64,000 nucleotides of DNA. It comes from Muscardinus avellanarius. Its lineage: Eukaryota; Chordata; Mammalia; Rodentia; Gliridae. Below are positions 9,626 to 60,785 of the stretch, piece after piece. The DNA is taken from assembly GCA_963383645.1 (NCBI GenBank), contig OY726571.1, positions 18,045,376 to 18,109,375 of the forward strand, read 5' to 3'. A model generated the notes under the pieces. It searched no databases. It was not told where the DNA came from and worked only from the letters and a program-made list of their open reading frames with translations. The translations under genes were made by a program, and so were the position numbers. Position 1 is the stretch's first letter; each line of letters starts with the position of its first letter.

Positions 9626-10559
9626 ATGGGCTTTAGAGTCTCCAGCTTGCCACAAAAACAGGTTGGTGAGGAGATGATGCTGTAGTACAATATAGATATA
9701 GGACAACTGAATAAAGACTTATTGAGGTAAAATAAAAGATCACAGACTGCCCCAGTCCAAGGTGCAGCCAAATTGCTCAAAGTGGAGTCATTTGGGGCCC
9801 TAACAAATTCCAGGGACACAGAGTAAGATTCAAGCAGTGAATGCCAATTGCCTCATTCAGTAGTCATTAATGTAAGGCTGTGGCCTGCTTTGGGGATCAT
9901 GAGGTTATACGGGCCCTCTTACAAACCAGCCTTAGCTAAGACAGTAGGAGCATGGGCATAGCGACACATGTCTAAGTATCTCCAAAGATTTAGAATTATC
10001 CAACCTGATCTTGATATAAAACATAAAGCTACCTTAACTAAGAATATTAAGCAAAAAACCTCAAACAAATGAATTTAGAACCATGATCAAGTGCTATTTC
10101 CCACAAAATTTAAAAATCACCAAATTATTGTTATTAGAATGTTATCAATAAAATATATCTCCAACTCAAAGGAATGAGCATCTAAGGATATCTTGCTGTT
10201 GGAAGTCATTTGGCAGTATTCAAATACATTTCTGAGAAACACTGAGCTAAATAGAAATATAAGCACATATCTTTGTATTATGAAAGTTATCTTTATCATA
10301 ATACTATCACCAAAAAATCTTTAATAAACAAACCCAAAACAATCTCATTATGGCCTGTGTATACTCAAAGTCACCCATTATCATTACTAATGTATAATAA
10401 TATTTTAAAATTTTAGTTAATACAATTACGTATTAACTATTAATAAGTAACATTGATAGAAATGATAAAATGAAAGTTAGGTGTCATAAAATAAAATTTA
10501 AAATCTCATACTCCATGATTAGATAGCTCAGGTCATGATACTCTAGACCGTATTTCTCC
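9626..10559. other. AT-rich intergenic sequence
   Basis: Nothing recognised. Confidence 0.45.
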
Positions 10560-16449: not shown

Positions 16450-16612
16450 GCAACACAAAACCACTAAGCCAAGCATGAGAGGGAGGGATGGGGAGGGAGT
16501 GGGGTGGGTACTGGGAGGGGGCCAGCTGGGTGATGTGTGCATTTATGTCTACACAAGATTTTTGCTTCATTATGATGTATGAATACAATGCACCAATAAA
16601 AAAAAATTTTAA
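16450..16612 (+). mobile_element. L1 3'-terminal fragment
   Basis: CCACTAAGCCAAGCATGAG, a G-rich stretch, TTATGTCTACACAAG and AATGCACCAATAAAAAAAAA: same terminal module as in chimeric elements A and B. Confidence 0.8.
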
Positions 16613-42151: not shown

Positions 42152-42376
42152 CATTTTTTTTATTTGTGCACTGTAGTCATACATCTAAATGAGGTACAAG
42201 ATGATAGAGGCATACATGCACACATCACTCATTTAGCCCTTCCCCAATTCATACCCCTTTCCCTCCCCCTCCCTCCTTCTCATGCTTGGCTTAGTGAATG
42301 ATTTTGATATGTTTGTGAACATGCATCATGTACACTAGATTTTGATATGTTTGTGAACATGCATCATGTACACTAA
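42152..42376 (-). mobile_element. L1 3'-terminal fragment with internal duplication
   Basis: Complement of the common L1 terminal module (CATGCTTGGCTTAGTGAATG). The segment just beyond, ATTTTGATATGTTTGTGAAC, is a perfect 38-bp tandem duplication at 42300-42337 and 42338-42375. Confidence 0.8.
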
Positions 42377-49981: not shown

Positions 49982-49997
49982 AAGTTTTGCCTTTACT
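49982..49997. repeat. Target-site duplication of copy A, left
   Basis: AAGTTTTGCCTTTACT, repeated exactly at 52757-52772 on the far side of the element and adjoining its A tail. Confidence 0.93.
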
Positions 49998-51055
49998 TTT
50001 TTTTTTTTAAATTTTATTTTACTGGTGCACTGTATTCATACATCATAGTGGGATACAAACTTTTGTAGACATAAATGCACACATCGCCCAGTCAGCCCCC
50101 ACCCGATCCCCACCCCATTCTCTCCCCATCCCTCCTTCCCATGCTTGGCTTAGTGGTTGACATCTAGTATTATAGCAATTTATCCAAAATTAAAAATGAT
50201 AATCTCACATAACAGTTTCATACCAAGCGTTTGATGATTTAAAGATAGCATTTCAATATTTCTTTTTGCTTTCTTTCTTACTAGAGCATATTTTTTTCTG
50301 TTTTTTTAGGTGAAACTATCATATATTTATATATTTATTTTTCAGAAAAAAATCTATCCTAATATGGAATATGAATTCTAGATACCCAAAACGATCTTGA
50401 AAAAGAACAAAGCTAGCAGATATATATTTTCTGATTTCAAACCATATAAAGCTACAATAATTGAAACAGTGTAGTACTGTTCTAAAGGCAGATATATAGA
50501 CCATTGGAGTTAAATACAAGCCTAGAGCTAAATTCTTCCCTATATTGTCAAGTTATTTTTGACAAGGTTTCCACGAACATTTGGTGGTGGAAATAATAAT
50601 CTTTTAACTAAATATTGTTGAAAAATAATAATTACATGGAAAAGAATAAAATTGGACCCTTACCTAATCCCATATACAAGTATTAACTCAAAATAGATAA
50701 AAGACCTAAATATAAATCTTAAGACTATAAACTTTTAGGAGAAAATCTGGGTCATAAAACCTCACAACATTGAAATTGGCAGTGATTTCTTGGATATGAT
50801 TTCAATGGCACAGGCAACAGAAGAATATACAAACTCCCTAAAAAATAAAAGAAAATATTGTATATCCAAAGACAATGTAAACAGAGTTAAAAGTTACTAA
50901 TAGAATTGGATAAAATATTTCCAAATGCTATATCTGAAGGTATATTAATATTCCAACTAGACATCCTAAAAACTGACAACAATAAAGGCAAACAATACAA
51001 CTTAGAGATAGGTAAAAGACTAACATAAATAATGAATCTCCACAGATAACCAATC

Positions 51056-52018
51056 TTAGTTGTCTGTTGGATGGAAACTCTTGTTTCTCTGGTTCTGGTG
51101 AGTGTTACCTATTTCTTCTTTGTAGTTAATCTCTTTGAGTATTTTCTCTAGCGCTGTTTTTGAAGACATAAATTCCTTCCGTTTCTGTTTGTCATGGAAG
51201 CTTCTTATTTCTCCATCTAATTTGATAGAAAGTTTTGCTGGGTAGGAAATTTTTGGCTGGAAGTTGTTTTCTTTCAGAGTTTGGAATATGTTACTCCAAG
51301 CCCTTCTGGCTCTCATGACTTGGTTTGGGAAGTCTGGAGTGATTCTAATTGGTTTGCCTCTGAATGTCAGTTGGCCCTTTGTTTTTATTGCCTTTAAGAT
51401 TCTCTGCTTGGCTTCCACATTGGTCATTTTGACAATTATATGGCGTGGGGATCCTCTTCTCCGATCCTGTCTAAAGGGAGTTCTATAAGTTTCCTGGATC
51501 TGTGTATCAACCTCTTGCTCTATATTTGGAAAATTTTCTGCTATTACTTCCTTGAAGAGATTGTTGATCCCTTTGGTATCACTTTCTTTTCCCTCCTCTA
51601 TTCCAATTATTCTTAGGTTAGCTCTCTTAAGATGGGCCCATATTTCTTCAATGTCAGATTCCTGCTGTTGGATATTTTTTTCTAGATTAGAAACTATGCA
51701 TTCATTTTTGGATTGCTCCTCTTCTAAGAGCGAGATTCTATTCCCCATGTGGTCTAATCGGTTGTTTGTGCTTTGAATTGAGGCCTTTACTTCATTAATT
51801 GCATCCTTTATCTCTTTTTGGCTCTCTCTGAGTTCTTTTCGAAGCACCTCTATTATTTCTACAGTTATTTTCCTGATTTGATCTTCTAGAAATCTCTGAT
51901 TTTCTGTTTTATCAGGTTCTGATGTTGTGGGGTTGTGCACATTCATTACTCCAGTGTTATTCCTCTTTCCCATGATTTCGGAAGTTTGTGCCTTCTCTGG
52001 GTTCTTCCCTTGGGTCAC
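51056..52018 (-). CDS. LINE-1 ORF1 protein (intact, 320 codons)
   Basis: ORF1p is the trimeric RNA-binding chaperone that coats L1 RNA in the cytoplasmic ribonucleoprotein used for retrotransposition. The order seen is a polar N-terminus (1-44), a heptad-rich coiled coil (about 45-130) containing RISLLE at 94-99, which fits the RhxxhE trimerisation motif, an RRM-like segment (about 133-210, with LRIIGI and PRHIIVKM strands), and a C-terminal domain (about 215-305) with LTFRGKPIRI, ARR at 237-239 (equivalent to the nucleic-acid-binding ARR of human ORF1p) and FQPKISYPAKLS. At 320 residues it is close to the usual length (338 in human). The first ATG is at 52018. A second, MGKRNN, at 51973 matches the usual MGK-type start of mammalian ORF1 and may be the true one. 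No ORF2 follows: antisense ORF2 sequence begins about 15 nt past the stop. Whether it is expressed is unknown. Confidence 0.9.
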   Translation of the reverse strand: MTQGKNPEKAQTSEIMGKRNNTGVMNVHNPTTSEPDKTENQRFLEDQIRKITVEIIEVLRKELRESQKEIKDAINEVKASIQSTNNRLDHMGNRISLLEEEQSKNECIVSNLEKNIQQQESDIEEIWAHLKRANLRIIGIEEGKESDTKGINNLFKEVIAENFPNIEQEVDTQIQETYRTPFRQDRRRGSPRHIIVKMTNVEAKQRILKAIKTKGQLTFRGKPIRITPDFPNQVMRARRAWSNIFQTLKENNFQPKISYPAKLSIKLDGEIRSFHDKQKRKEFMSSKTALEKILKEINYKEEIGNTHQNQRNKSFHPTDN

Positions 52019-52756
52019 TATGGCTTCACTTAAGGTGCTCTGGATCTCGAGTCTGTATTATCTCAGACCCCACTACTCCTTTACTGGGTTGTATCACAGA
52101 GTCTCCGACCCAGGGAGTCGATAGAGGCTGCTTTAAACTATGGGGGGTGCCAGGTTGCACGTTCTCCTATGGTGTGATATCTCTGCCACCACCACTCCCT
52201 CACTGGGTCAAGTCCCAGGAGGCCCAATACTGCGATTTCTCCTCTGTGACCCGCAATTTGACTCACTGTTCTTGAGTACGCAGATGTAGCTGTACTGGAC
52301 TCGGTGAATTCACTGCTGCTGCCGCCGCCGGTGGCAATATGGCGCCTCTGCCACGCCCTCGGCCATGAGGCTGGCGTATTTTTTCTTCTCTGGTTTTGAT
52401 TTCCACTCTGAATCCCTGCAGCGTGTGCTGAGCTCAGCCACTGAGAGCTTTAAATGCTGTCTGCGCCGAAAGATTCCGCCTGGCTGTTCCGCAGCGGCTC
52501 TCCTGGCTTGCTGTAGCCGTCCGTTGAGTTCGCCGCTGCCGCCGGCAGTATGGTGCTGCTGCCGCGTCCTCGGGCGCGTGTGTCTCCTCTGTGGCCCTGA
52601 GCTCTGTTCTCAGTCCGCTCTCTCTCTGGAGCCTGGTGGTTTCTTTTGTTTTTCTGGTGATGGTGTTTTCTGGCTATGAAAGGTGCTCTTTTTGTGGTAA
52701 TGGAGATTGGTTGTTAGCGGGACTCTTAAGCCCCGCTTTTCTCGGTCGCCATCTTC
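52019..52756 (-). promoter_or_regulatory. L1 5'UTR / internal promoter region of copy A
   Basis: Counterpart of the copy B 5'UTR. The element starts with GAAGATGGCGACC (52756 leftward). The terminal hairpin at 52716-52737 has one mismatch in a 9-bp arm. The internal block with the GCCGGCAGTATGG / GTGGCAATATGG signature occurs twice (near 52540 and 52325), about 215 bp apart, as in copy B. A 104-codon frame antisense to the element (52365-52679, plus strand) shares a stretch of similar residues with an antisense frame in copy B. Confidence 0.65.
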
Positions 52757-52772
52757 AAGTTTTGCCTTTACT
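52757..52772. repeat. Target-site duplication of copy A, right
   Basis: Exact 16-bp match to 49982-49997, directly next to the 5' end of the element. Confidence 0.93.
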
Positions 52773-52930
52773 GATCCTCCCTCTCCTCTTCCCTTTCCCC
52801 TAGACAACCTTCCTGACTCCACTGGAATTTCTCCTCCATTTTCTGAAGTCCTTTTGGTATTTCGATTACTTCCTAGCTTCTGCATATGAAGGAGAAAATA
52901 CATTAAAAGTATTGTCTGGACTTGAATGAG

Positions 52931-53843
52931 ACTAATCTACACCATAAAATAAATGTCGTGTTTGTTTAAGAGTGACCAAGCTACATTGAGTGCTATTTAA
53001 GAGTGACCAAGCTATATTTTGATGAATGTGTGGCTGTGCTTGTCCTACAAGAGACACAACTCAAGATGTTCTAATATGAGCATCAGCTTCATCAGTGAGC
53101 CAACAAGTTTAATGCAGCACTTGTGCTCAGAAGTAAGAACGAGGGGCACAGGCTGCCCCTGATGATTAGGATCCGTCCCAAGAAGTAGGGTCTGGACTTT
53201 GTAAGTATCCTTGGACAACTTGTAGTTAATGTGATTTGGGGATACTTACAATATGGCAATATGACAGGTGCTAAACAGAAGCACTGAAAACAGACTTCAT
53301 TGACAGAAGACTTATATTTTCTGTGGGAACCAATTTTACTGCAGATACATGTGGTCACTACATTGCACTTCTTTTTCTAATAAATGATCAGTTTTATCTT
53401 CCTTGGTATTTGGGGAAATTAGGGAATGGATATAGTGACAGAGAAAATGGACTGTTGGGGGAGAACTAAGTGTTACAGTCAGTGGAGAGAAGAGGAATGA
53501 GACAGTCACTATGCCAGGGAGTCCACCATGGTCATCCCGTGAGGTCAGGAGCTGAGAAGACACAAGCACAATCTCACTGGAACCCCTCTTGAACACACTA
53601 ACAACTTCCTCCTGAGATGTTCTCAGGATAAGTACGACTGACCGTCTGGATGGTCTTGTTTACACAAGACATGATTCTTACGTAAACAAGTAGAAATTGA
53701 AAGTTTACCATTGCTGGATGATTTGAGATATTTTTTTTCAAATAAGTGTGATCTGAAATCCTGAGTTTTTAAGTCTTCGATTTAGCCACTAAACAAATTA
53801 TAACCAAGAGAAGTCATAATTTATTCATTTATTTATTCATTTA
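52931..53843. other. Intergenic spacer between the inverted chimeric elements
   Basis: TTTAAGAGTGACCAAGCTA occurs twice near 52,970 and 53,000. Frames of 86-88 codons on the minus strand are unsupported. Nothing else recognised. Confidence 0.4.
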
Positions 53844-54039
53844 TCGGTACTGGGGATTGAAGCCAGGGGCATTCTCCCTCCAAGCTACACCCCACCAGCC
53901 CTATTTTTTATTCTTTATTTTAAAATAAGATCTCACTAAGTTGCAAAGGGCCTCACTAAGTAGGCTGGCTGCAAACCTGTGATCCTGTCTCAGCCTACCA
54001 AATACTGGGATTACAAACATGTGCCACCATGCCCGGCTT
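53844..54039 (-). mobile_element. B1-dID-like SINE
   Basis: CGGTACTGGGGATTGAAGCC through GCCACCATGCCCGGCTT. Confidence 0.9.
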
Positions 54040-54884
54040 AATTCTTATGTTTCACTGTAACTAATTATTTGATTTCTCTAAAATTAAATGCTACATCTGC
54101 AAAAGTAAGTATTAAAGTGATGCATGTGTTTTTTTCTTTTTCTTTTTCTCTAGTAAATGAAAACATATTCAAGAGCTATATGGAAATATTAAGTTCTATA
54201 GTAAGATAAGCATGAGATTTTACAAAATTGTGAATACATCAAAAGTCTTAGAGAACCTGATAATATGAAACAAGAAAAAAAAATACACATGAACATCCCA
54301 CTCCAGAGAAAATGCTGTTTTCCTAACTTTTTAAAATCTATATTGGGAAGAGCCAGAGAGTGTCATTCTTTCATCTCCCTGTGTCTAAACTTAGTAGAAA
54401 GCATTGATCTTTAATTTTTTTTTAAAAAATCTCATATTCATTAACCTAGTCCTTTTCATGTAAAAAAAAAAAAAACACTGCGTTCTAACAGTAAGTGACT
54501 TTTTTCTGCAAAAAAACAAAGACATAGGATAAAACCTCTCAAATCCTGATTTGTAGCGGCTGAGCTGACAAGGGCCCAGAGAAAGAGAAAGAGAGAAAAA
54601 GAAGGAGAGGGAGGGAGAGGGAGAGGGAGAGGGGGTATAACATGATGCCTACCTCCTGTCAGCAAGGGGCTGGGAGAGTCCTGGAAGTGCTGGAGTGACA
54701 GAAAGGACTGACCTCTGGTATTTATACAAGAGAGAAACGGACCTGAGAGAAAGAGTTGCTTGTCCTTTTCCAGACAGTGGCTTATTTAGAACAGGAAATA
54801 GATGTTTTTTAAAAAAAATTAAATACCTTATAGCAGAATGGAAAAAAGTTCTACGGGACTACAATATAAAGAATAACAATGTAA
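54040..54884. other. AT-rich intergenic sequence
   Basis: A purine-rich (GGGAGA)n patch lies at 54575-54635. Nothing else recognised. Confidence 0.45.
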
Positions 54885-54898
54885 AGAATACAAAACAC
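54885..54898. repeat. Target-site duplication of copy B, left
   Basis: AGAATACAAAACAC directly before the 5' end of the element; exact match at 57662-57675. Confidence 0.92.
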
Positions 54899-55646
54899 GA
54901 GACTTCCGGGAAGATGGCGACCGAGAAAAGCGGGGCTTAAGAGCCCCGCTAACAACCAATCTCCATTACCACAAAATCAGCGCCTTTCATAGCCAGAAAA
55001 CACCATCACCAGAGAAACAAAAAAATCACCAGGCTCCAGAGAGAAAGCGGACTGAGAACAGAGCTCAGAGCCACAGAGGAGATACACCAGCCTCACGCCC
55101 AAGGACGCGGCAGCAGCGCCATACTGCCGGCGGCAGCGGCGAATTCACCGGACGGCCACAGCAAACCGAGGTGAGCCGCTGCGGAACAGCCATGTGGGAT
55201 CTTTCGGCGCAGGGAGCATCTAAAGCTCCCAGTGGCTGAGCTCAGCACACGCTGCATGGCCTCAGAGTGGAACTCAAAACCAGAGAAGGGAAAATGCGCC
55301 TCACAGCCAAGGGCATGGCAGCAGCGCCATATTGCCACCAGTGGCAGCAGCAGTGAATTCACCGAGTCCAGTACAGCTACATCTGTGTACTCAAGAACAG
55401 TGAGTCAAATTGTGGGTTCCAGAGGAAAAATCCCAGTACTGTACTCCCTGGGACTTGACCCAGTGGGGGAGTGGCGGTGGCAGAGATATCACACCATAGG
55501 AGAACGTGCAACCTGGCACCCACATAGTCTAAAGCAGCCTCTATCGACTCCCTGGGTCAGAGACTCTGTGATAAAACCCAGTAAAGGAGTAGTGGGGTCA
55601 GAGATACTACAGACTCGAGATCCAGAGCACCTTAAGCGAAGTCATA
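54899..55646 (+). promoter_or_regulatory. L1 5'UTR / internal promoter region of copy B
   Basis: GC- and CpG-rich, unlike the surrounding AT-rich DNA. AAGATGGCGA at 54911-54920 matches the YY1-type motif that sits near +13 in human L1 and positions transcription start (known for that family, inferred here). Just downstream is a perfect hairpin with 9-bp arms (AGCGGGGCT/AGCCCCGCT, 54929-54937 and 54942-54950) and a TAAG loop. A block starting CCTCAC...GCAGCAGCGCCATA occurs at 55091 and again at 55299, a 208-bp period that suggests a monomer-like duplication within the 5'UTR. Confidence 0.7.
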
Positions 55647-56585
55647 GTGACCCAAGGGAAGAACCCAGAGAAGGCACAAACTTCCGAAATCATGGGAAAG
55701 AGGAATAACACTGGAGCAATGAATGCCCACAACCCCACAACATCAGAACCCGATAAAACAGAAAATCAGAGATTTCTAGAAGATCAAATCAGGAAAATAA
55801 CTGTAGAAATAATAGAGGTGCTTCGAAAAGAATTCAGAGAGAGCCAAAAAGAGATAAAGGATGCAATTAATGAAGTAAAGGCCTCAATTCAAAGCATGAA
55901 CAACCGATTAGACCACATGGAGAACAGAATCTCGCTCTTAGAAGATGATCATTCCAAAAATGAACGCATAGTTTCTAATCTAGAAAAAAATATCCAACAG
56001 CAGGAATCTGACATTGAAGAAATATGGGCCCATTTTAAGAGAGCTAACCTAAGAATAATTGGAATAGAGGAGGGAAAAGAAAGTGAAACCAAAGAGATCA
56101 ACCATCTCTTCAAGGAAGTAATAGCAGAAAATTTTCCAAACATAGAGCAAGAGGTTGATACACAAGTCCAGGAAACTTATAGAACTCCCTTTAGACAGGA
56201 TCGATTGTCAAAATGACCAATGTGGAAGCCAAGCAGAGAATCTTAAAGGCAACAAAAACAAAGGACCAACTGACATTCAGAGGCAAACCAATTAGAATCA
56301 CTCCAGACTTCCCAAACCAAGTCATGAGAGCCAGAAGGACTTGGAGTAACATATTCCAAACTCTGAAAGAAAACAACTTCCAGCCAAAAATTTCCTACCC
56401 AGCAAAACTTTCTATCAAATTAGATGAAGAAATAAAGAAGCTTCCATGACAAACAGAAACTGAAGGAATTTATGTCTTCAAAACCAGCGCTAGAGAAAAT
56501 ACTCAAAGAGATTAACTACAAAGAAGAAATAGGTAGCACACACCAGAACCAGAGAAACAAGATTTTCCATCCAACAGACAACTAA
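55647..56585 (+). pseudogene. LINE-1 ORF1 pseudogene (copy B)
   Basis: Collinear with the intact ORF1 of copy A. The reading frame is open for 189 codons, through coiled coil and RRM start, with about 14 amino-acid differences from A by eye. Two lesions break it. Near 56205, 25 nt present in copy A are missing, which shifts the frame and causes a stop at 56214-56216. The RRM tail and C-terminal domain then continue in another frame from ATG 56213. Near 56435 an extra A in an A-rich run shifts the frame again, with a stop at 56447-56449. RISLLE, ARR and the C-terminal strand sequences are still recognisable across the frames. The ancestral stop (TAA) is at 56583-56585. No functional full-length product is expected. 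Confidence 0.88.
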
Positions 56586-57661
56586 GATTGGTTATCTGTG
56601 GAGATTCATTATTTATCTTAGTCTTTTACCTATCTCTAAATTGTATTTTTTGCCTTTATTGTTGTCAGTTTTTAGGATGTCTAGTTGGAATATTAATATA
56701 CCTTCAGATATAGCATTTGGAAATATTTTATCCAATTCTATTAGTAACTTTTAACTCTGTTTACATTGTCTTTGGATATACAATATTTTTTTATTTTTTA
56801 GGGAGTTTGTATACTCTTCTGTTGCCTGTGCCATTGAAATCATAACCAAGAAATCACTGCCAATTTCAATGTTGTGAGGTTTTATGACCCAGATTTTCTT
56901 CTAAAAGTTTATAGTCTTAAGATTTATATTTAGGTCTTTTATCTATTTTGAGTTAATACTTGTATATGGGATTAGGTAAGGGTCCAATTTTATTCTTTTC
57001 CATGTAATTATTATTTTTCAACAATATTTAGTTAAAATATTATTATTTCCACCACCAAATGTTCGTGGAAACCTTGTCAAAAATAACTTGACAATATAGG
57101 GAAGAATTTAGCTCTAGGCTTTTATTTAACTCCAATGGTTACATATCTGCCTTTAGAACAGTACTACACTGGTTCAATTATTGTAGCTTTATATGGTTTG
57201 AAATCAGAAAATATATATCTTCTAGCTTTGTTCTTTTTCAAGATCGTTTTGGGTATCTAGAGTCCATATTCCATATTAGGATAGATTTTTTTTCTGAAAA
57301 ATAAATATATAAATATATGACAGTTTCACCTTAAAAAAATAGAAAAAAAATATTCTCTGGTAAGAAAGAAAGCAAAAAGAAATATTGAAATATTATCTTT
57401 AAGTTATCAAAAGCTTGGTATCAGACAAATGAAACTGTTATGTGAAATTATCATTTTTAATTTTGGATAAGTTGCTATAATACTAGATGTCAACCACTAA
57501 GCCAAGCATGGGAAGGAGGGATGGGGAGAGAATGGGGTGGGGATCGGGTGGGGGCTGACTGGGCGTTGTGTATTTATGTCTACAAAAGTTTGTATCCCAC
57601 TAAGATGTTGAATACAGCGCACCAATAAAAAAATAAATAAAATAAAATAAAATATAAAAAT

Positions 57662-57675
57662 AGAATACAAAACAC
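57662..57675. repeat. Target-site duplication of copy B, right
   Basis: Exact 14-bp match to 54885-54898, directly after the A-rich tail. Confidence 0.92.
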
Positions 57676-60039: not shown

Positions 60040-60785
60040 AGAGTCTAATGCTGGCGAGGATGTGGAAGGTGGAAACTAATACATTGTTGGTGGGATTGCA
60101 AATTATTGCAACCACTTTGGACAACAGTATGAAGGATCCTCATAAGAATGGGAAATAACTGACCATACAATCCAGCAATACTACTTCTGGGTATCTACCC
60201 AAAAGAATGGAAACCAAACTACCAAATTAATGCATGCATATCTATGTTCATGGCTGCATAATTCACCATTGTCAAACTATGAAACCAGCCAAGATGTCCA
60301 TCAACAGATGAATAGATTACAAAACTATGGGATATGTACATGATGGAATTTTACTCAACCTAAAGAGGAACAAAATTACGTCATTTACAGGGAAATGGAG
60401 GGAACTGGAGAACATTATGCTAAGTGAGATTAATCAGTCACAAAAAAATAAGAAATAAGATGCTCTCTTTAATATGCTGAAGTTAGGGAGAAAATTAGTC
60501 ACAGGACAAACTCTAGACAAAGGAGATACTATAGATGAGCAAATAAGGCAACCTAACTGAGGGAGACTGGGGGGAAAAAGAGGGAAATTCCCTGATCTGC
60601 AGTATATACATTAACAAACATATCAAAGTCCATCACTAAGCCAAACATGAGTAGGACAGAGGTGGAGAGAATGGAGTATGAATTGGGTAAGAGCTAATGG
60701 GGTGATGTGTACATGTATGTTGCCACCATCTTATACTCCATTAAGATGTACGACTGCAATGCACCAATTTAAAAAGATTTAACAA
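60040..60785 (+). mobile_element. L1 ORF2 end plus 3'UTR
   Basis: The most complete uninterrupted L1 3' end here: GCTGGCGAGGATGTGGAAGG, CATACAATCCAGCAATACTA, ATGTCCATCAACAGATGAAT, GGAACTGGAGAACATTATGC, CCATCACTAAGCCAAACATG and TGCAATGCACCAATTTAAAA. It gives the reference order for the broken copies at 15,635-16,345 and 42,152. Confidence 0.88.

Follow-up and report, generated by a model that had tools for sequence, protein, structure and literature searches.

The window analysed here, a 64,000-nucleotide (nt) stretch of Muscardinus avellanarius DNA, holds two copies, A and B, of a rearranged L1 retrotransposon. We consider it likely, with a probability of roughly 0.8, that both are members of a large, recently active, HAL1-like non-autonomous L1 family with a captured 3' module, and that this module was later carried by an autonomous L1 lineage. 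In both copies a GC-rich L1 5' untranslated region (5'UTR) is followed by open reading frame 1 (ORF1), an antisense segment of L1 ORF2, an AT-rich stretch, an L1 3' end of about 150 nt and an A-rich tail. An earlier note on this DNA had reported two copies with the same module order, each with its own perfect target-site duplication (TSD), and both observations hold: the copies agree at 2593 of 2719 aligned positions (95.4%), and the TSDs are exact over 16 bp in A and 14 bp in B. The 5' end of copy B is eleven bases longer than that of A. The features of the two copies, by position in the window, are the following.

49982-49997: TSD of copy A on the 3' side of the element, AAGTTTTGCCTTTACT
49998-52756, reverse strand: copy A, entire element
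49998-50166, reverse strand: A-rich tail and ~150-nt L1 3' end of copy A, with a G-rich tract and a near-AATAAA motif, resembling L1 3' ends elsewhere in the window and those of ordinary autonomous L1
50167-50342, reverse strand: AT-rich stretch of copy A between putative fossil and tail, present in full-length copies
50343-51055, forward strand: putative fossil L1 ORF2 segment of copy A, antisense to the element; protein match to human ORF2p residues 855-1080 at about 50379-51035, with stops
51056-51973, reverse strand: ORF1 of copy A, open, 305 amino acids
51974-52756, reverse strand: L1 5'UTR of copy A, GC-rich, first bases GAAGATGGCGACC
52757-52772: TSD of copy A on the 5' side, exact repeat of 49982-49997
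54885-54898: TSD of copy B on the 5' side, AGAATACAAAACAC
54899-57661, forward strand: copy B, entire element, module order as in copy A
54899-55691, forward strand: L1 5'UTR of copy B
55692-56585, forward strand: ORF1 of copy B, disrupted by the loss of 25 nt near 56204
56577-56603, forward strand, in copy B and 51038-51064, reverse strand, in copy A: 27-nt junction between ORF1 and the antisense segment
56586-57298, reverse strand: putative fossil L1 ORF2 segment of copy B, antisense to the element, with borders taken from the alignment to copy A
57299-57493, forward strand: AT-rich stretch of copy B
57494-57661, forward strand: L1 3' end and A-rich tail of copy B
57662-57675: TSD of copy B on the 3' side, exact repeat of 54885-54898

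The only ORF2 sequence found in the element is the antisense segment, which is riddled with stops in both copies. A sense ORF2 was looked for in the 2.75-kb element of A and B and is absent, and the 32 full-length copies described below have the same length and content. Assignment of the 5'UTR to L1 follows from its position and composition; in many other full-length copies its start is preceded by (GA)GACTTCCGG. The tail is 70-82% similar to L1 3' ends at three further places in the window (16459-16604, 42155-42296 and 60628-60775), and the AT-rich stretch of copy A has no match in those 3' ends or in three ordinary autonomous L1 loci of the genome (L069, L070 and L073). A decayed ORF2 end, read by eye and compared with the autonomous loci L068-L073, lies upstream of 60628-60775.

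The rearranged form is abundant in the 2.5-Gb genome to which the window belongs. The 27-nt junction, allowing at most 2 mismatches, occurs at 9827 + 9876 = 19,703 sites, and the reversed-pattern control gave 0 and 0. At the first 20 exact-junction sites along C1 the antisense segment follows in 20 of 20 and the tail is reached in 18. If all 19,703 sites were full length they would amount to about 54 Mb or 2.2% of the genome, an arithmetical upper bound for these sites. A 301-bp junction query returned 1333 first-look candidates, of which the best 40 were scored, all at 97% or more. We examined 41 copies, namely the 39 fetched from these 40 matches (the other being copy A) together with A and B; 32 of the 41 span the element from position 60 or earlier to position 2735 or later, two of them being A and B and the other 30 coming from the best matches. 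Divergence across the family ranges from identical pairs up to 16-18%, the latter for an old copy in L020. Two members, L022 and L036, were themselves twin-primed and have inverted 5' parts. In L009 the first ~600 nt are only 75-80% similar, so that a different 5'UTR stands on the same chimera.

These copies carry the marks of separate L1-type insertions. A TSD with at most one mismatch scored above all 31 mismatched-flank controls in 24 of the 32 full-length copies, and the 23 target sites read are T(T/C)/AAAA-like, the kind of site that the L1 endonuclease should cut, although a TSD start that falls in an A-run is to some extent ambiguous. L014 and L019, which lie at different sites, show no difference over 2,762 bp, and activity must therefore have been recent; nine copies differ by a mean of 0.30%. 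The family is old, and it was active very recently as well. The earlier note had staked its reading on the junction recurring elsewhere in the genome, and had argued that the rearranged form itself was repeatedly transcribed and reverse-transcribed; the junction count and the TSDs agree with it on both points.

ORF1 of copy A matches both L1 ORF1p domains (PF02994 and PF17490) and LINE-1 ORF1p structures at E 2.8e-57, and the frame is open in 22 of the 32 full-length copies. Scans of viral and genome contig collections with the ORF1 protein and the junction pattern found no relative, as expected for a mammal.

The antisense segment had been described as 3' sequence of ORF2 and as an inversion in the middle of the element that was re-amplified. 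It is indeed antisense ORF2, in mid-element and re-amplified. However, with stops read as X its match in LINE-1 ORF2p covers residues 855-1080 of 1275 (E 1.7e-24), which is the part downstream of the reverse transcriptase and short of the ORF2 3' end. Furthermore, since it resembles human ORF2p more than it does the ORF2 of its own genome, the segment is most likely a decayed fossil captured from a different, older L1 rather than the product of an ORF2 inversion within the element itself. In copy A the identity is 36.0% to human ORF2p (over 186 amino acids) and 28.9% to the modern ORF2 of the genome, and two stretches of an old chimera give 45.9% and 46.7% to human ORF2p versus 32.2% and 44.0% to the genome's own, while human ORF2p and the genome's ORF2 are 65.0% identical to each other. 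A recent inversion of the element's own ORF2 was rejected on this comparison, but an own-ORF2 inversion of such age that it decayed keeps a slight probability. The decay came in part after capture, with the old copy 46% identical to human ORF2p over 130 amino acids and copy A 36% over 186. In nucleotide sequence the old copy barely exceeds the young ones in similarity to modern ORF2 (401 of 712 sites against 384 of 697).

Two other loci bear on how the chimera arose. L029 (1-1445) is an old ordinary L1 whose ORF1 end is 88.8% identical to that of the chimera; across the ORF1 stop into the spacer it reads GACAACTAAGCAAAGAAGAATAAACAG, and an ORF2 endonuclease match lies behind. The old chimera in L020 differs from copy A by 16-18% and is split by a young copy of its own family; its sequence here is GACAACTAAGCAAAGAAGAATATATTCATG, followed by the putative fossil, where young chimeras read GACAACTAAGATTGG. 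The junctions thus form a series from ordinary L1 (GACAACTAAG/CAAAGAAGAATAAACAG) through the old chimera (GACAACTAAGCAAAGAAGAATA/TATTCATG) to young chimeras (GACAACTAAG/ATTGG). Because the old chimera keeps 12 nt of the ordinary ORF1/ORF2 spacer, the original breakpoint lies in that spacer, about 12 nt beyond the shared ORF1 end, and some 28 nt, a figure that depends on the alignment, were lost later. On the other side the antisense segment ends near residue 855 and the AT-rich stretch begins. A captured genomic segment made of a 5'-truncated fossil L1 and its flank would fit this border.

The earlier note had presented the element as ORF1-only and HAL1-like, with an antisense segment that sets it apart. 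HAL1-like it is, but the segment also belongs to the 3'UTR of an autonomous L1 lineage. The six best-scoring ORF2 loci fall into two groups by their 3'UTR. In L069, L070 and L073 it is short and of the ordinary type, and only its last ~165 nt resemble the tail of the element (76-78%). In the three loci listed here, element positions 1856-2717, comprising the antisense segment, the AT-rich stretch and most of the tail, begin 39 nt past the ORF2 stop and run at 90% identity up to the end of the fetched DNA.

L068, G000:C9:82125681: autonomous L1 with the module as its 3'UTR
L071, C10:6727905: autonomous L1 with the module as its 3'UTR
L072, C10:6738366: autonomous L1 with the module as its 3'UTR

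The reading frame of L068 is lost near the end of ORF2, and L071 and L072 share one orientation at a distance of 10 kb. A further autonomous copy with the module stands at C1:67642758. All six loci also match element positions 2237-2326 weakly within their own ORF2 (70-72%), which reflects the homology of the antisense segment. The junction between ORF2 and this segment occurs at 402 + 383 = 785 sites, with a control of 0. Along C1, 17 of the 36 listed ORF2 matches, which are the best-scoring of 127,706 first-look candidates and not a random sample, carry this junction exactly; a frame of at least 1270 amino acids is open in 9 of these 17 versus 13 of the 19 without it. Some module-bearing autonomous copies have an intact ORF2 of 1278 amino acids. 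Their antisense segment starts ~150 nt later than that of the chimera.

We consider that the autonomous lineage probably acquired its 3' module from the chimera. In a FastTree phylogeny of the shared region, with the old chimera taken as root, the three autonomous 3'UTRs are nested within the chimera copies. L058 and L066 are their sister group (local support 0.91), and L051 and the old chimera branch outside the group that contains them (local support 0.92). The tree comprises 18 of the 20 chromosome-order copies (the short L052 and L063 were dropped), 9 of the 30 fetched full-length copies (10 were chosen and one without the exact junction was skipped), A, B, L009, one old chimera and the three autonomous sequences. 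When sites are polarised by modern ORF2, young chimera and autonomous sequences share 17 derived sites, young and old chimera 4, and autonomous and old chimera 3. At 37 fixed differences between young chimera and autonomous sequences, the old chimera agrees with the young one at 19 and with the autonomous at 16, has another base at 1 and a gap at 1. Transfer from the chimera to the autonomous lineage is favoured because the old chimera lies outside both and because the autonomous junction is rare and little diverged.

The opposite order would have the fossil first captured as the 3'UTR of an autonomous L1, with the chimera arising by a later deletion of ORF2 and the present autonomous forms as direct heirs. 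A single deletion would suffice, the 5' part of the chimera is of an ordinary L1 type (as L029 indicates), and autonomous copies with the module exist, some of them with intact ORF2. We nevertheless regard this order as unlikely, given the position of the old chimera outside the pair of young chimera and autonomous sequences, with its polarised sites, and given that the autonomous junction is some 25 times rarer (the two patterns differ slightly, and allowing no more than 2 mismatches misses old copies of either kind). The three autonomous copies read are also just 1-2.4% apart, and their antisense segment is shorter than that of the chimera. Far less probable are two explanations that treat the copies as local or individual events. 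Copies A and B stand only 2.1 kb apart in opposite orientation, and one could have been made from the other by a local inverted duplication, or the two by gene conversion between neighbours. Their divergence is indeed patchy, with 45 of 1800 sites (2.5%) differing at A positions 565-2428 and 55 of 777 (7.1%) outside, CpG excluded, and none of 200 permutations was as extreme. Either gene conversion between the inverted neighbours or descent from different source subfamilies may be the cause, and conversion may have touched this pair without explaining the family. As the origin of copy B, local inverted duplication is refuted by the separate exact TSDs, the thousands of other copies and the 5' flanks, which when compared have no sequence in common, in line with the two independent insertions first proposed. 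Of the similarities between the 3' flanks, the longer ones consist of a SINE-like repeat and a (CA)n run, and between the 3' flank of A and the 5' flank of B there are short matches of ~80% over 41-46 bp. Ordinary twin priming, in which every copy would be its own inversion at insertion, does act in this family, as L022 and L036 attest. As an account of the chimera it is the least credible of all: one junction is common to every sampled copy and to thousands of sites, the antisense piece stands between a sense ORF1 and a sense tail, and it does not derive from the present ORF2 of this L1. Shared breakpoints refute it.

Several observations weigh against the reading of A and B as a HAL1-like family whose 3' module was passed to an autonomous L1. 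Eight of the 32 full-length copies have no TSD above all controls (L019, L016, L023, L027, L030, L040, L046 and L047). For L019 a 9-bp TSD lies beyond a transduced stretch, with 1 of 31 controls equal or better; about 59 bp of its 3' flank is shared with L014 by 3' transduction. L016, L023 and L027 have 250-261 bp of identical 3' flank in common and then diverge, and their 5' flanks at the insertion are unrelated, a pattern such as 3' transduction gives; the shared stretch ends in an A-run in L016 and L023, and in L027 the flank continues without one. The remaining four have no convincing TSD. The two sets of transductions mark two source lineages of the family and count in favour of the reading. 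ORF1 under purifying selection is a criterion of HAL1. Among the 34 ORF1 changes common to at least three copies, 26 are nonsynonymous and 8 synonymous, a ratio of 3.25 against 3.29 expected, for a ratio of nonsynonymous to synonymous rates (dN/dS) of ~0.99; the 142 singleton changes (99 and 43, ratio 2.30) give ~0.70. Variant densities in mid-element, this set included, are biased low since the copies were picked as best matches to element positions 1556-1857; the comparison of A with B and the chromosome-order sample are free of that bias. Because purifying selection on ORF1 is not clear between recent copies, the family's own ORF1p may be dispensable, and shared changes without a synonymous excess speak against a strict HAL1 assignment. 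The direction of transfer depends on a single old chimera and on three autonomous copies read in their 3' half, with supports of 0.91-0.92 under old-chimera rooting, and the shorter autonomous segment may reflect loss from an unseen ancestral autonomous L1.

With these points in mind, the HAL1-like family with a captured module would work as follows. Its RNA would consist of the L1 5'UTR and ORF1, with ORF2 and most of the 3'UTR replaced by a captured insert of ~0.9 kb (part of a decayed L1 in antisense, then the AT-rich stretch) ahead of the ~150-nt L1 3' end. Capture would have taken place in the spacer between ORF1 and ORF2. Transcription would start from the 5'UTR, and the open frame predicts that ORF1p is made. 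Target-primed reverse transcription would rely on ORF2p supplied in trans by the autonomous L1s of the same genome, since the copies have TSDs, A-tails and TT/AAAA-like target sites and intact ORF2 copies are present. Later, an autonomous lineage most likely took the fossil, AT-rich stretch and tail from the chimera as its own 3'UTR, for example by template switching during reverse transcription. We would give even odds to the fullest version, in which an ORF1-only L1 parasite gained a new 3' end from an antisense fossil, multiplied to some twenty thousand copies and then handed this 3' end on to a recently active autonomous L1.

From the perspective of L1 evolution, the origin of new untranslated regions is an open question, and a series of steps seems to be kept in one genome: ordinary L1, old chimera with 12 nt of spacer, young chimera, and autonomous L1 with the 3' end of the chimera. 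If this is correct, replacement of an L1 3'UTR came from a parasite, and the module perhaps aids recruitment of ORF2p or evades host silencing. In an ORF1-only family with very recent insertions one can also test whether the element needs ORF1p of its own and whether it uses ORF2p in trans. A paper on the extinction of a retroelement in Spermophilus tridecemlineatus is cited in the reference list of PMC5872511. In the present genome L1 seems to have been active recently.

Among known systems, HAL1 is the closest. In the available portions of the sources, HAL1 is a non-autonomous L1 derivative with ORF1 only that has had several origins in mammals (PMC5753468), and activity of HAL1 with the internal promoter kept is described in rat (PMC8535693). 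The present element likewise encodes ORF1 without ORF2, has an L1 5'UTR as judged from position and composition, ends in an L1 3' end and is multi-copy with TSDs, an A-tail and an endonuclease site. It is set apart from those HAL1 descriptions, as far as the portions extend, by the captured antisense fossil and AT-rich stretch that replace ORF2 and by a 3' module common to an autonomous L1. Among the papers listed by searches of the open-licence PMC literature, none had a title or abstract start on a family that joins ORF1 to antisense ORF2. Unlike twin-primed L1s, the element has an inverted part that most likely stems from another L1 and breakpoints that are constant across copies, and unlike autonomous L1s, copies A and B have no intact sense ORF2.

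Composite families offer further parallels. SVA and LAVA are composite, non-autonomous families moved by L1 in trans, according to the accessible part of PMC7353768. The present element is also composite and non-autonomous. SVA and LAVA are not known to encode ORF1, which the present element has. Chimeras of L1 with other RNAs are described for the human lineage by Law and Burns 2026 (PMC13174262), where, in the portion available, such swaps are speculated to drive 5'UTR replacement. Those chimeras are likewise made with the L1 machinery, but in them, as that portion describes it, the partner sequence lies 5' of L1, whereas here it is internal and belongs to a large family. Mouse L1 families exchange modules, with strand switching by reverse transcriptase among the models given in the accessible text of PMC3600994. 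That exchange, as described there, is among mouse L1 families, whereas in the present genome the probable donor is an ORF1-only derivative.

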